In this document: positions 17,579 through 23,664 of the stretch, piece after piece
Layout of the letters: every line of letters begins with the position of its first letter
Numbering within the stretch: the first letter of the stretch is position 1
DNA from: Brachyspira sp. SAP_772
GTDB lineage: Bacteria; Spirochaetota; Brachyspiria; Brachyspirales; Brachyspiraceae
Assembly (NCBI RefSeq): GCF_009755885.1
Contig: NZ_VYIX01000001.1
Coordinates: forward strand, 1,134,586-1,198,585
Direction of reading: 5' to 3'
Length of the DNA: 64,000 nucleotides
The notes under the pieces: generated by a model
The model's database searches: none
What the model saw: only the letters and a program-made list of their open reading frames with translations
What the model was told of the DNA's origin: nothing
Translations under genes and position numbers: made by a program

Positions 17579-17842
17579 ATGTCTAAAGTATTGGTGGAAT
17601 TTATAAATACCTGCCCTACTTGCGATGGGTATTCATCATATTTAAAAGAACTTCAAGAAACGTATAAAGATAAAATAGAAGTAAAACTATATTATGCAGG
17701 AAAAGATTTTGATTATTTAGCAAAATATGGAATGGTAGACAGAGGTACACTAATTATAAATGAAAAAAATAGATATGATGTGTTAAGCAAAAAGTTAATA
17801 GAACAAGAAATAAAAAAAGCTATAGAAGAACCAAACTCTTAA
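17579..17842 (+). CDS. Small thioredoxin-like protein with CPTC motif
   Basis: This is an 87-aa protein of the thioredoxin/glutaredoxin fold. Strand one runs into NTCPTCDGYSSYL, with the CxxC at Cys12 and Cys15 at the start of a helix. A later strand, VDRGTLIINEKNRYDVL, is in the usual place for the cis-Pro strand, although no obvious cis-Pro is seen. It probably reduces disulphides or passes a thiol-bound metal or metalloid to a partner. It starts after AAGGA and ends 3 nt before the permease gene, so the two are surely co-translated. Thioredoxin-like proteins of this size are often found beside YraQ/ArsP permeases (family knowledge). Confidence 0.8.
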   Translation: MSKVLVEFINTCPTCDGYSSYLKELQETYKDKIEVKLYYAGKDFDYLAKYGMVDRGTLIINEKNRYDVLSKKLIEQEIKKAIEEPNS

Positions 17843-17845
17843 ATT

Positions 17846-18967
17846 ATGGAAATAAAAAATATGATAATGAATTTTTTATATGTATTTTGGGACTTTCTTG
17901 TTATAAGTTCAGAATGGATTGTTATAAGCTTAATACTATCGGGTATAATACATGCCTTTGTTCGTCCGCAGGTGCTTCAAAAATCTATAGGAAATAAAAA
18001 AATATCTTCTCTAATAAAAACAACAATATCAGGAGCTATACTTCCTATATGCAGTTGCGGGGTGCTTCCATTGGCTTTGAGTTTATATAGAACAGGTGCA
18101 TATTTGGGACCTACTCTTTCTTTTTTGGTGGCAACTCCAATAATTAACCCTGCTGCAATAATAGTAGCTTTTGCTATGCTTGGAAAAGAGGTTACTTTTA
18201 TATATATTTTATGCGGAATATTTTTGCCTTTAATAATAGGAATGTTGGGAAATATTTTTGGAGGCAAAGAATTAATTGCTCCTGAAGTTTTAAAACTTAA
18301 GAGCATGAATATAAAAATTCCAGAAAACACTTATGTAGATAAAACTCCTTGGTACAAAAAATTATATAACGGCATATTATGGGGATTTAATAATTTAGGA
18401 ATAGAGATAAGCAGATTTATATTAGTAGGTACTTTATTTGGAGCTATTTTATTAACGGTAGTGCCTCAGTCATTTGTTATGCAATATTTAAGCAATCCTA
18501 AATTAGTTTCAATTATAGGCATAACATTAGTAGGATGCATAATGTATGTGTGTGCTTTAGGGCATATTCCTTTTATTGCTGCATTAATATCTGCAGGTGC
18601 TTCGCCCGGTATAGCTATTACTTTTTTAATTACTGGTGTTGCTACAAATATATCTGAATTAATAAGCATATATAAATTAATAGGAAAAAGAACTTTAATA
18701 ATATATCTTTTCTCTATGCTTTTCTTTGGCATATTGATAGGATACATTACAAATATTGTATTGGCAAACAACTTTACTCCAATATTTGATTTATCAAGTT
18801 CAAGCAAGCAAATAGAATTGGCAAATAATATCAATATTACTTTTCCAGATTGGTTCAAAAATATATGTGCTGTTGCGGTGTTGTTTATGGGGCTTTATTC
18901 ATGGTTTATGATTATAGTTAAAAAGATAAAGGTTTTGTTAAGCAGAGGAAAAGAAGTTGAATGTTAA
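17846..18967 (+). CDS. YraQ/ArsP (DUF318) family permease
   Basis: This integral membrane protein of 373 aa has about eight hydrophobic segments in two halves. The hallmark LPICSCGVLPLALSLYRTGA (Cys69, Cys71) and SFLVATPIINPAA are the conserved loops of the permease family that includes ArsP, a trivalent organoarsenical exporter, and SO_0444-type metal efflux proteins. The second half repeats the pattern with CALGHIPFIAALISAGASPG. The paired Cys suit binding of a thiophilic metal or metalloid. The gene starts 3 nt after the thioredoxin-like gene and overlaps the next gene by 7 nt. I infer export of a metal(loid) product. The substrate is not proven. Confidence 0.85.
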   Translation: MEIKNMIMNFLYVFWDFLVISSEWIVISLILSGIIHAFVRPQVLQKSIGNKKISSLIKTTISGAILPICSCGVLPLALSLYRTGAYLGPTLSFLVATPIINPAAIIVAFAMLGKEVTFIYILCGIFLPLIIGMLGNIFGGKELIAPEVLKLKSMNIKIPENTYVDKTPWYKKLYNGILWGFNNLGIEISRFILVGTLFGAILLTVVPQSFVMQYLSNPKLVSIIGITLVGCIMYVCALGHIPFIAALISAGASPGIAITFLITGVATNISELISIYKLIGKRTLIIYLFSMLFFGILIGYITNIVLANNFTPIFDLSSSSKQIELANNINITFPDWFKNICAVAVLFMGLYSWFMIIVKKIKVLLSRGKEVEC

Positions 18968-19407
18968 AGATAGTTTGGGCTTTGTGCTTTTTTATATTTA
19001 TCTCATGCAATGATAATACTGAATATATAAAAAGTGCAGAAGGCATAAATAATACAGAGCTTTATAAAGAGTATATAAAAAAATATTCTGATAAAGAACT
19101 ATTAACTTTTTTGGAGGGAGATTTTAACGGAGATAATATAGATGATTTAATAATAATATATAAAGAATCTGAATATTCAAACAAATTAATAGGTATATAT
19201 AAAGATTCTAATAAAATATTAATGACTACTCCAATACCGGCACCTATAGAAAATTATATAATCAAATTCTACAACATAGATGAAAAAGTTCCTAACGAAA
19301 TTTTGGTATCTGGTAAAAAGGGGGCTAATATAGGTTTTGCCGTTTATAGGCTTGAAAATGGAGAGTTTATAAGTTTGTTTGAAAATGGCATGGAAAAATG
19401 TTGCTAA
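18961..19407 (+). CDS. Small lipoprotein with FG-GAP/VCBS-like motif
   Basis: This 148-aa protein has an N-terminal signal MLKIVWALCFFIFISCNDN with a lipobox Cys at residue 16. Its core contains LEGDFNGDNIDDLIIIYKES, an FG-GAP/VCBS-like calcium-loop pattern (D-x-N-G-D-x-x-D-D). It also has GKKGANIGFAVYRLENGEFI. The end carries a vicinal Cys pair (KCC) that could bind a soft metal. It overlaps the permease gene by 7 nt and is read from the AGAGGAAAAGAAG before it. The role within the operon is unknown. Its length and motif suggest a periplasmic accessory protein. Confidence 0.7.
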   Translation: MLKIVWALCFFIFISCNDNTEYIKSAEGINNTELYKEYIKKYSDKELLTFLEGDFNGDNIDDLIIIYKESEYSNKLIGIYKDSNKILMTTPIPAPIENYIIKFYNIDEKVPNEILVSGKKGANIGFAVYRLENGEFISLFENGMEKCC

Positions 19408-19436
19408 ATATAAATAAAAAATATAAGGAGAACAAA

Positions 19437-20609
19437 ATGAAAAAAATTGTAATTATTTTATTTATGATGATTTTTATCCTTTCATGCGGCGGAAGTGATA
19501 ATGCATCTAAAACAACAGAAGCTTCTATTCCAAAAGATGTACAAGCTATAGTTGCTGGATATGATTTGGAAGAGTTAAGTGATGAAGACAAAAAATACAA
19601 AATTAATTTAGGATATTACAACTGCGACCATATGACAGCAGCTTGTGTTGGAGAAGATACTGGCATATTTAAAGCATTAGGTTTAAATGTTACAGTTACA
19701 GGAAATGGTAATGTACCAGAGGCTATGAGTGCTGGGCAGATGGACATGGCTTATGCTGGTTTTACAACTACTTTGAATGCAGTAAAAAATAAAGTTCCTC
19801 TTTTTATAGCAGCAGAAAATCATACAGGGGGAGCTGAATATTTTGTTGTTTCTAAAGATATAGAAAAGCCAGAAGATTTATTAAATAAAAGAATATCTAT
19901 GGGGGCCAATGCTGAAACAGTAAATTTAAACTGGGCAGAATGGACAGAACAATTAAATATACCAAGAGATACAAAATATTATGAAAACTTTTCTATGAGT
20001 GATTCTGATGCATATTTTGCATTTAAGTTAGGACAGCTTGACGGATATGGTGCATGTGACCCTTGGGGTTCTATGGCAGAATATGAAAACACTGGTAAAA
20101 TATTAAAAAGACAAAACACAGACAGAGAAATAGATGGTCATGGCACTTGCTGTAAAGTTTGTATGAATTATAACTTTGCTAAAGCTCATCCAAAATTGGC
20201 AGAAAGAATACTTCTTGCTCATGCTATGTCTATAGAATATATGTATCTTCACCCATATAAAGCAGCTGAAATATTCGCTGAAAATTATAATGTTCCTTTA
20301 GAAGTTGGCTTAATGACTTTATGGAAAAAACTTAATGAAGAAGGAAGAACTATCACTTGGAAATTAAACAGAGAGTATGTTCATAATCAAATGAAAACTA
20401 TGAGAAGATTAGGTGTGAGAGATGATATTAATTCTCTTGATATAGATGATTATATTGACTTATCTTATTTTGATAATTGCGGTGCTAAAGATTTTGATGT
20501 ATTCATTAAAGAAGAAGTTGATCCAATATTCCCACTTGGTATGAGTTATGAAGATTGGAGGGCTAAAGCAGTAGAGATAGATAATATCATAGAAGAGCCT
20601 AAAGCGTAA
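19437..20609 (+). CDS. Cysteine-rich ABC transporter substrate-binding lipoprotein (NMT1/SsuA-like)
   Basis: This is a lipoprotein (MKKIVIILFMMIFILSCGGS, lipobox Cys17) with the NMT1/SsuA/TauA-type periplasmic fold: INLGYYNCDHMTAACVGEDT, GIFKALGLNV, EAMSAGQMDMAYAGFTTTLN. The start at 19437 is chosen over an upstream TTG-type extension because AAGGAG precedes it and a signal peptide begins there. Unusually for this family the mature protein has seven further Cys, at 63, 70, 207, 238, 239, 242 and 348, including a TCCKVC cluster. That suits a ligand bound through thiolates, such as a soft-metal or organometal complex. The permease and ATPase genes follow in the same operon. Confidence 0.85.
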   Translation: MKKIVIILFMMIFILSCGGSDNASKTTEASIPKDVQAIVAGYDLEELSDEDKKYKINLGYYNCDHMTAACVGEDTGIFKALGLNVTVTGNGNVPEAMSAGQMDMAYAGFTTTLNAVKNKVPLFIAAENHTGGAEYFVVSKDIEKPEDLLNKRISMGANAETVNLNWAEWTEQLNIPRDTKYYENFSMSDSDAYFAFKLGQLDGYGACDPWGSMAEYENTGKILKRQNTDREIDGHGTCCKVCMNYNFAKAHPKLAERILLAHAMSIEYMYLHPYKAAEIFAENYNVPLEVGLMTLWKKLNEEGRTITWKLNREYVHNQMKTMRRLGVRDDINSLDIDDYIDLSYFDNCGAKDFDVFIKEEVDPIFPLGMSYEDWRAKAVEIDNIIEEPKA

Positions 20610-20632
20610 AGTAATAAGCGAGAAAAATAAAG

Positions 20633-21463
20633 ATGAGGCATATAATAAATAAAAACAAATATATTATTGTATTTAGTATAATTTTTGTTATATGCTTCCT
20701 TTTATTTCAAAATTATAAAAACTATAAATTAGATAAAAAAGATACAATAACAATAGCATGCGGAAATGATGCTTCTGGAATGCTCTTTGATTATATAATA
20801 AACACTAAAAAAAATTCTAATATAGAGTTTTCAAATATTGATTATATACAGTTTTTGGATTGCTGCGGTTCTCAAGCTGAGTTTGCTTTTATATCAGGAA
20901 GAGTTGATATGGCGGTATTATGTCCTGATGCTGCTTTTCAATTAGTATCTATAGACACTAATTATTATATAGTAGATTCTATAGTAAAAGGCTCTAATAT
21001 ATTAGTTTATTATAATGAAAGCTATGATGATGATAATATAAAACCAAAAAATATTGGGTATATGAATAAAAGATTGCTTCAAGAAATATTGTTAAAAGAG
21101 AAATATTCAAATTCCAATTATTATCCCATGCTTTCAACTGCATTGCCTTATGCCTTAGAAAAGAAAACGGTTGATGCAGTGCTTATTGATATTATTTTGG
21201 CTTTAAAAATAAAAGAAGCAAGATTTAAAAAAATAGATACTGAAGAGGTTGATTATTATTTGGTGGCATCAAAAAAATTAAAAGACACTTTAATGCTTAA
21301 TAATTTTATTAAAGCTTACAATGAAGCGGTGAATGATATTGAAGATGAAATTATATTATCAAATATGCTTGTTAATTATTTAGATATTTCAAATTCTGAA
21401 GGAGAGATAAAAACATGGAAAACAATGGGAGTCAAGTTCCTCAAAATAAAAGCAGAGTCATAA
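20633..21463 (+). CDS. Membrane-anchored second substrate-binding-like protein
   Basis: This 276-aa protein has one N-terminal hydrophobic segment (about residues 11-26), either an uncleaved anchor or a signal, and a periplasmic domain of the type II binding-protein fold. ITIACGNDASG, FAFISGRVDMAVLCPDAAF and NIGYMNKRLLQEIL correspond to the hinge and ligand strands of NMT1-like proteins. It has a vicinal Cys pair in FLDCCGSQAEF (Cys77, Cys78), plus Cys43 and Cys97. It starts 23 nt after the first binding protein and overlaps the permease gene by 49 nt. Two different binding proteins in one ABC operon is uncommon. It may hand the ligand on from the first or bind a second form of it. Confidence 0.72.
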   Translation: MRHIINKNKYIIVFSIIFVICFLLFQNYKNYKLDKKDTITIACGNDASGMLFDYIINTKKNSNIEFSNIDYIQFLDCCGSQAEFAFISGRVDMAVLCPDAAFQLVSIDTNYYIVDSIVKGSNILVYYNESYDDDNIKPKNIGYMNKRLLQEILLKEKYSNSNYYPMLSTALPYALEKKTVDAVLIDIILALKIKEARFKKIDTEEVDYYLVASKKLKDTLMLNNFIKAYNEAVNDIEDEIILSNMLVNYLDISNSEGEIKTWKTMGVKFLKIKAES

Positions 21464-22242
21464 ATTTAGGAAATGCTGGAAACAGTTTATTTATGAAGTT
21501 TTATAGTGTTTCTGTACTTTTAGCTATTATGATAATTTGGTATTTTCTTGCCAAAAAGATAGATAATAATTTACTTCTTCCAGATTTTATTTTAACTTGC
21601 AAAGAGTTTTTTAAATCTTGGGTAGATTCTTATACAGTACAAAATCTACTTATAACATTAGAGAGAGTATTTAGAGGTTTTATTATAGCCTGCATAATAG
21701 GTCTTCCTTTAGGGCTTATTATGGGTTATTCAAAGCCTATACTTTTAGCCATATCCCCAATAATAAACTCAATAAGACAAGTACCCATAATGGCATGGAT
21801 TCCATTAGCTATAGTGTGGTTTGGACTTGGGGACGGCCCTACAATATTTTTAATTACTATGAGTGCAATATTCCCACTTATAATAAACACAATAGATGGA
21901 GTTAGAGGAATAGACCCTAATTATATTAATGCTGCAAGGAGTATGGGAGCAAGAAATATAGACATAATGCTTGATATAATTCTCCCCGGTGCCTTGCCTT
22001 CATTTCTAACAGGATGCAGACTTGCTTTAGGGCTTGGTTGGATGAGCGTAATATGTGCAGAGTTTATAGCTACGAGTAAAGGTTTTGGATTCATATTGGT
22101 AGAAGCTCAGCAGAGACTTGAGACTCCTAAGCTTTATGCTCTTATGATAGTGTCTGCTATTATTGGCTTTAGTATGGATAGGATATTAATTATATTAGAA
22201 AAACTACTAACTTCTTGGAGATTTAAAAATGGCAATTCTTGA
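21415..22242 (+). CDS. ABC transporter permease (SsuC/TauC-like)
   Basis: This inner-membrane permease of the binding-protein-dependent family has six hydrophobic segments. The EAA loop that docks the ATPase is INAARSMGARNIDIMLDIIL followed by PGALPSFLTGCRLALGLGWM, typical of SsuC/TauC/NrtB proteins. The start ATG at 21415 follows a clear AAGGAG and lies 49 nt inside the preceding gene in another frame, so translation is coupled. The partner ATPase follows with a 14-nt overlap. The imported ligand is inferred from context to be an organometal or soft-metal species. On family alone it could be a sulphonate-like compound. Confidence 0.9.
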   Translation: MENNGSQVPQNKSRVINLGNAGNSLFMKFYSVSVLLAIMIIWYFLAKKIDNNLLLPDFILTCKEFFKSWVDSYTVQNLLITLERVFRGFIIACIIGLPLGLIMGYSKPILLAISPIINSIRQVPIMAWIPLAIVWFGLGDGPTIFLITMSAIFPLIINTIDGVRGIDPNYINAARSMGARNIDIMLDIILPGALPSFLTGCRLALGLGWMSVICAEFIATSKGFGFILVEAQQRLETPKLYALMIVSAIIGFSMDRILIILEKLLTSWRFKNGNS

Positions 22243-23011
22243 AGTTAAAAATGTATGCAAATCTTTTAAAGTTTCAAAAAAAGCTCCTGAAGTTGAAGTA
22301 TTAAGAAACATTAATTTTAATATAGAAAAAGGAGAGTTTGTAACTTTGCTTGGACCTTCAGGCTGCGGAAAAACAACACTTCTTACTATGATAGGCGGTT
22401 TTCAAAATCCTACTTCTGGAGAGGTATTACTTGAAGGCGAGAAAATAGAAAAACCTTCTTCTGAAAGAGGATATGTTTTTCAAAATTATGCTCTATTTCC
22501 TTGGATGAATGTTGAAAAAAATATTTTGTATTCACTTAAGTTTTCAAAGATGAATAGAGAAGAAAAAAAGAAAAGATTAGAAGAGCTTCTTGAAATGTCC
22601 CATCTTAAGGGGCATGAAAAAAAGTATCCTATATCTCTTTCTGGAGGTATGCAGCAGAGGGTTGCTGTTGTGAGGGCATTAGCACCCAATCCAAAAATAC
22701 TTCTTTTAGATGAACCGCTTGGGGCAATAGATTTGCAGATGAGAGAGCATATGCAAAAAGAGTTACTGCAATTAGTTAAAGAAAGTAACAGCACCATATT
22801 AATGGTTACTCATGATGTATCTGAAGCTGTTTATATGAGCGATAGAGTTATAGTGATGAGTTTAAACAAAGGGGAAATTGTTGCTGATATAAAAATAGAT
22901 TTAAAGCATCCAAGAGAAAGAGATAGTATTGAGTATATAGAACATGTTAGAGAACTTAGTAATAGTGTTAAAAAAGCTTTTATCAATGAAGCGTCTATTG
23001 ATAAAAGTTAA
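22229..23011 (+). CDS. ABC transporter ATP-binding protein (SsuB/TauB-like)
   Basis: This 260-aa nucleotide-binding subunit powers the permease encoded just before it. Walker A is GPSGCGKTT (residues 42-50), the Q-loop is RGYVFQNYALFPWM, the signature is LSGGMQQRVAVVRAL, Walker B is ILLLDEPLGAID and the switch His is in MVTHDVSEA. All are intact. It overlaps the permease by 14 nt and is read from a GGAG inside that gene. The merB-like gene starts 32 nt downstream, so transporter and lyase are evidently produced together. Confidence 0.93.
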   Translation: MAILEVKNVCKSFKVSKKAPEVEVLRNINFNIEKGEFVTLLGPSGCGKTTLLTMIGGFQNPTSGEVLLEGEKIEKPSSERGYVFQNYALFPWMNVEKNILYSLKFSKMNREEKKKRLEELLEMSHLKGHEKKYPISLSGGMQQRVAVVRALAPNPKILLLDEPLGAIDLQMREHMQKELLQLVKESNSTILMVTHDVSEAVYMSDRVIVMSLNKGEIVADIKIDLKHPRERDSIEYIEHVRELSNSVKKAFINEASIDKS

Positions 23012-23043
23012 TATAAATATTTTTTTAGAGGATTTAATTTATT

Positions 23044-23664
23044 ATGTTTGATGAGAATTTTATGAACAAATATGGTGTGTCTGATAAGTATCATAATTTA
23101 CCTTCAGATATGCAAAACGCAAGGTTAAGGTTAATTGACAAAGTAATAGAAACAGGATGCACTATAAGTAAAGAAGAAGCTATAAAAATATGCGGCGATG
23201 AAAAATTATACAATTCTTTAATAGAAAAAGAAATTGTTACTATGAGCGGAGATTCTATTGCATTTCTTTATCCTGTATCAGCTATGGAAACTAATCATAG
23301 AGTAAAACTTTCAGACGGAAGAGAGTTTTGTTCTATGTGTGCTATTGATGCTTTAGGCTCTTATAGTTTATTTCACCAAGATACTGAAATTAATTCTATA
23401 TGCTCTCAAACAGGAGAGAAAATATATGTAAGAATTAAAGACAGAGAGATAGTAGAGCATTCACCTAAAAATATTCATGTTATTCATGTTGATCTTAATA
23501 AGAATAAAAACTGGGCTAGCACTTGCTGAAATATAATGAATTTCTTTGGTTCAAAGAATGATATGAATGAATGGCTTAAAAATCAAGATGTTGATAATAA
23601 CACAACATATCTTTTAGATTTAGAAACCGCTTTTAAAGTAGCAACTGCTATATTTCAGATATAA
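23044..23664 (+). CDS. merB: Organomercurial (alkylmercury) lyase with in-frame UGA, probable selenoprotein
   Basis: MerB cleaves the carbon-mercury bond of organomercurials, releasing Hg(II). The frame reads 161 residues to a TGA at 23527, then stays open for 44 more sense codons of MerB-like sequence (NFFGSKNDMNEW, then LDLETAFKVA) to a TAA, giving 206 residues against 212 for R831b MerB. Relative to R831b numbering, Cys96, Asp99, Cys117 and Cys159 correspond at a constant offset of +3 to Cys99, Asp102, Cys120 and the TGA codon 162. The TGA therefore stands where the second catalytic Cys should be. A SECIS-like hairpin follows the TGA. I read codon 162 as selenocysteine. Cys161 next to it could form a selenenylsulphide. 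The alternative is a truncating mutation. The gene has an AGAGGA ribosome site and closes the operon. Confidence 0.85.
23527..23560 (+). promoter_or_regulatory. Putative bacterial SECIS element after the merB UGA
   Basis: The TGA at 23527-23529 is followed by a hairpin with left arm TTCTTTG (23542-23548), loop GTT (23549-23551) and right arm CAAAGAA (23552-23558), a perfect 7-bp stem. The loop begins with G and starts 19 nt after the TGA. Bacterial SECIS elements have an apical loop with an early G, placed roughly 16-37 nt from the UGA. The hairpin lies within the coding sequence for NFFGSKN, as expected in bacteria. Confidence 0.72.

Follow-up and report, generated by a model that had tools for sequence, protein, structure and literature searches.

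A sao operon in Brachyspira sp. SAP_772 encodes a MerB-like lyase with a predicted catalytic selenocysteine, and double-UGA relatives occur in other spirochaetes

Results

The sao operon and the saoL reading frame

The 64,000-nucleotide stretch of the Brachyspira sp. SAP_772 genome analysed here (hereafter the window) carries an eight-gene sao operon in the order saoT-E-C-X-B-P-A-L (17579-23664), in which every product scores over its NCBIfam cut-off (Table 1). The last gene, saoL, encodes a protein that reaches 189.7 bits against NF040728 (curated cut-off 140), where positions 2-159 of the 159 in the model match SaoL residues 14-161, so that the model stops exactly at Cys161. The neighbouring genes encode ABC-transporter components and an ArsP-type permease, and neither merA nor merR was found among the sao genes. 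The true start of saoX probably lies downstream of 19398, near the sequence MKKIVIILF; its orthologues begin at MKK.

Eight Brachyspira genomes carry a DsrE-related gene, saoD, between saoA and saoL (L033:7627-7917), a position occupied here by the gap 23011-23044. No saoD was found in this genome, nor in G001 and G007. Apparent splits by a single frameshift, due to either sequencing error or decay, were seen in saoD of G021 (L034:1213-1499, minus strand) and in saoA of G007 (L035:6151-6931, plus strand).

Translation of the plus-strand frame at 23044-23664 showed an ATG at 23044, a lone internal stop (TGA, 23527-23529) and a terminal TAA at 23662. Reading through the TGA gives a product of 206 residues (MFDENF...NWASTC-U-NIMNFFGS...AIFQI) with U162 and 44 residues beyond it, and the coordinates and residue counts of the original prediction were thus correct. 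That prediction remarked neither on Cys161, which immediately precedes U162 to form a 'CU' pair, nor on the place of the gene at the end of a sao operon. No other sao gene of the operon could plausibly be extended past an in-frame TGA. SaoT (CPTC), SaoC (EKCC) and SaoB (DCCGSQ) are all Cys forms, which leaves SaoL as the only predicted selenocysteine (Sec) protein of the operon and indicates that Sec is not required throughout the SAO system.

Table 1. Features of the sao operon in the window and of related MerB-like genes in other spirochaete genomes
Feature	Position	Strand	Evidence
saoT: thioredoxin-like protein, CPTC, Cys form	17579..17842	+	NF040730, 131.8 bits (cut-off 65)
saoE: efflux permease, ArsP_1 family	17846..18967	+	NF040736, 496.7 bits (cut-off 325); PF03773
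saoC: Cys-Cys-COOH protein, EKCC terminus, without Sec	18961..19407	+	NF040734, 159.1 bits (cut-off 80)
saoX: ABC substrate-binding subunit	19398..20609	+	NF040735, 502.4 bits (cut-off 300)
saoB: ABC substrate-binding protein, Cys-Cys (DCCGSQ), without UGA	20633..21463	+	NF040727, 318.1 bits (cut-off 140)
saoP: ABC transporter permease	21415..22242	+	NF040733, 388.2 bits (cut-off 295)
saoA: ABC transporter ATP-binding protein	22229..23011	+	NF040729, 367.5 bits (cut-off 360)
saoL: MerB-like organometallic lyase, 206 aa, predicted Sec at residue 162	23044..23664	+	NF040728; PF03243; UGA kept in orthologues
UGA codon, predicted Sec, in the invariant catalytic Cys column (R831b MerB Cys159), after Cys161	23527..23529	+	MerB alignment
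Candidate SECIS apical hairpin, UUCUUUG-GUU-CAAAGAA, 13-29 nt 3' of UGA	23542..23558	+	Covariation, silent sites, local MFE
Double-UGA MerB-like gene	G142:C21:6339-7088; L052:1279-2031	-	SaoL profile match
Double-UGA MerB-like gene	G165:C364; L059:1489-2190	-	50% identical to G142 gene
Cys-form MerB-like paralogue, WYAEC-SLE, APC-DNNRFF, just 3' of a flavodoxin-like gene	G142:C3; L060:1264-2106	+	Alignment

The UGA codon occupies a catalytic column of the MerB domain

With Cys substituted for U, the read-through sequence matches the Pfam MerB domain (PF03243) over residues 79-205 with 104 bits (cut-off 27), so the 44-residue tail is part of this domain. The conserved active-site residues of MerB are Cys96, Asp99 and Cys159 (PMC4525700). 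When SaoL was aligned with plasmid MerB proteins and the Tissierella SaoL, the columns that hold Cys99, Asp102 and U162 proved invariant; U162 falls in the catalytic Cys column, as the original prediction had anticipated. The same alignment bears out the equivalences proposed for Cys99, Asp102 and the TGA at codon 162 but not that for Cys120, whose column varies across the family. A gapped phmmer alignment to R831b MerB raised the possibility of a register shifted by one residue, in which Cys161 would be the counterpart of Cys159. This was ruled out by MerB2 (PDB 5c17), which aligns without gaps in this region and places its Cys opposite U162, and is also contradicted by the 'AFC' motif of Staphylococcus aureus MerB, where the sole Cys lies in the U162 column.

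Description of the protein as a MerB-type alkylmercury lyase is borne out in part: the Pfam domain and the catalytic columns are present, but SaoL scores far under the cut-offs of the true-MerB models (NF009710, 66.8 bits against 193; NF033555, 58.3 bits against 200) and the gene has no merA or merR neighbours. An AlphaFold model of SaoL built from seven close sequences had a mean pLDDT of 46.8 and was too poor for use.

Intact orthologues retain the UGA codon and a constrained tail

Of 26 Brachyspira genomes, 11 carry saoL, each with a single TGA at the same codon. Among the ten intact copies, pN/pS was 0.150 after the UGA compared with 0.176 before it, indicating that the tail is selected as protein; this purifying selection, together with conservation of the UGA at one codon in all ten, exceeds chance. 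The eleventh copy, in G016, has a 10-nt tandem duplication (GCTGAAATAT) right after the UGA that causes a frameshift (G016:C1:90450-90480; L026 / L033). Downstream disruption, which the original prediction had named as potentially damaging to its case, was thus confined to one orthologue. Outside the genus, SaoL of Tissierella creatinophila is 42% identical and has the same UGA (NWSGEC-U-NIMNFF), while searches of viral and phage collections yielded no SaoL relatives.

Selenocysteine machinery and a candidate SECIS hairpin

All four components whose absence would have spoken against Sec are present in the genome. The tRNA-Sec gene (59.9 bits over cut-off) is clustered with selB (301 bits) and selA (459 bits) at C1:1056508-1059909, and selD (356 bits) lies elsewhere. 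selB was detected in all 26 Brachyspira genomes. In addition, grdA of the same genome contains one in-frame TGA, which indicates that UGA decoding is in use in this organism. Glycine reductase selenoproteins have been reported from Brachyspira pilosicoli (PMC2897892), and a thioredoxin-like selenoprotein family in Brachyspira was described earlier on the same type of evidence (PMC5330540).

A potential hairpin with a seven-pair stem follows the saoL UGA (Table 1), and its counterpart in Tissierella (UUCUUCU-GUA-GGAAGAA) has two pairs altered on both sides. At invariant degenerate codons, silent variation was found at 3/10 sites within the 14 codons after the UGA, compared with 86/109 in the rest of saoL (Fisher p = 0.0024). 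The 70-nt fold after the UGA had a z-score of 0.32, a stability not beyond chance; the local MFE of the hairpin was matched by 0.4% of synonymous shuffles, and an equally long stem appeared in 20% of them. We consider this moderately unusual hairpin a probable SECIS element. Its use as strong proof of Sec was abandoned because, as the shuffles indicate, the encoded peptide itself already favours such a hairpin.

Double-UGA relatives in other spirochaetes

A SaoL profile search of Spirochaetota identified, in genome G142, a MerB-like gene whose reading frame is interrupted by two TGAs. Read through, it encodes 250 residues, with QUAFES where MerB has Cys96 and YSUSTMNFF where MerB has Cys159, and in the family alignment its two U columns are the two catalytic Cys columns; Glu stands in place of Asp99. 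The protein matches Pfam MerB with 79.1 bits as well as MerB from the PDB, and falls under the cut-off of every model in NCBIfam (release 20). A second such gene, in G165, a member of a different spirochaete family, has TGAs at the same two codons. The double-UGA form was confined to these 2 of the 393 Spirochaetota genomes searched, in which matches in G272 and G342 were weak and partial. A seven-pair hairpin follows each UGA of the two genes, none strongly significant against synonymous shuffles, and selB is present in G142. This genome also encodes a MerB-like paralogue with Cys at both catalytic sites.

No account of a double-Sec MerB turned up in the papers searched, and the G142 and G165 genes likely encode an undescribed double-Sec lyase. 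More broadly, we think it rather probable that MerB-fold lyases use selenium to differing degrees, perhaps gained repeatedly, and that the G142/G165 lineage, separate from SaoL, represents a double-Sec organometal lyase absent from both NCBIfam release 20 and the papers searched.

Discussion

If UGA 23527 were an ordinary stop codon, the product would be a 161-residue protein ending in Cys161, and the tail would be a decaying remnant. Termination of the NF040728 model at this very residue and the broken tail of G016 would agree with this, but the end of the model may simply reflect training sequences that were called short at UGA. Purifying selection on the tail is as strong as on the body, the tail lies within the Pfam MerB domain and the catalytic column is also U in Tissierella SaoL, all of which make an ordinary stop very improbable. 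Near-cognate reading of UGA is known in bacteria, and read-through with another amino acid, such as Trp or Cys, would likewise yield a full-length protein. This we regard as less probable still, given the full Sec machinery of the genome, the position of the UGA in a catalytic Cys column and the publication of the SaoL family as Sec-containing. Sec at the catalytic position of SaoL is very likely, and the original placement of Sec at the site of the second catalytic thiol, Cys159, is backed by machinery, conservation and selection. Overall, we assign a probability of roughly 0.88 to the reading that saoL encodes the lyase of the Brachyspira sao (Sec-assisted organometallic) operon, in which UGA 23527 would be decoded as Sec to give a full-length MerB-fold enzyme.

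The identity of the substrate is a separate matter that is compatible with Sec decoding whichever metal is involved. The ArsP_1 family, to which SaoE belongs, includes organoarsenical permeases, and arsenic is therefore a possible substrate. An organoarsenical, an organotin or another non-mercury compound would also fit the lack of merA and merR among the sao genes, the scores under the true-MerB cut-offs and a family name that says just 'organometallic', whereas the intact MerB catalytic columns of SaoL argue for mercury. We tentatively entertain a non-mercury metal or metalloid as a serious contender.

From the operon, the decoding machinery, the conservation and the alignment, each read directly from sequence, we infer a scheme for selenium incorporation, catalysis, substrate and metal flow. 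UGA 23527 would be decoded by SelB and tRNA-Sec, probably aided by the hairpin 3' of the codon. By family membership, SaoX, SaoB, SaoP and SaoA appear to form an importer that would deliver the substrate. By analogy with MerB, Cys99 and Sec162 would clamp the metal of the organometallic compound and Asp102 would help to deliver a proton to the carbon, with cleavage of the carbon-metal bond; MerB chemistry suggests that a selenolate would hold a soft metal tighter than a thiol. Candidate acceptors for release of the metal product are the adjoining Cys161 or the SaoT and SaoC dithiols, and SaoE, judging from its family, may export the metal ion.

A catalytic site that clamps metal with selenium is relevant to the possible breakdown of methylmercury-like compounds in anaerobic guts. 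Retention of the predicted Sec in the Brachyspira lyase, among operon partners that have Cys instead, suggests that selenium is of advantage at the lyase step. If confirmed, the double-Sec relative would provide a naturally occurring test of the two MerB thiols, with Cys/Cys, Cys/Sec and Sec/Sec forms of one active site open to enzymatic comparison.

Comparison with known systems

SaoL (NF040728) is listed in a 2026 review as a protein of the SAO system with one Sec and the motif CU (PMC13188914), and an 'alkylmercury lyase MerB-like protein' already appeared among the selenoproteins of a 2022 review (PMC9312934). Given these listings, the enzyme class was already known; the original suggestion of a mechanistically new organomercurial lyase does not hold, and the gene at 23044-23664 is a further member of the SaoL family rather than a new kind of enzyme. 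Of the two findings, the relatives with two predicted Sec residues offer the greater novelty.

The Brachyspira operon resembles the known system in that SaoL exceeds the curated cut-off, has the CU motif with one predicted Sec and lies among sao genes. It differs in the absence of saoD and in having SaoL as its only predicted Sec protein, compared with the six selenoprotein genes attributed to the SAO operon in the 2026 review's account, which cites Haft & Gwadz 2023 (J Bacteriol 205:e0025922, as cited in PMC13188914). GrdA of the same genome shares with SaoL an in-frame TGA predicted to be read as Sec but is an unrelated protein. With MerB (NF033555, NF009710, PF03243; R831b), SaoL shares the domain and the Cys, Asp and Cys/Sec catalytic columns, and it is set apart by the predicted Sec in place of Cys159, the extra adjoining Cys161, scores far under the MerB cut-offs and the lack of a mer operon nearby.
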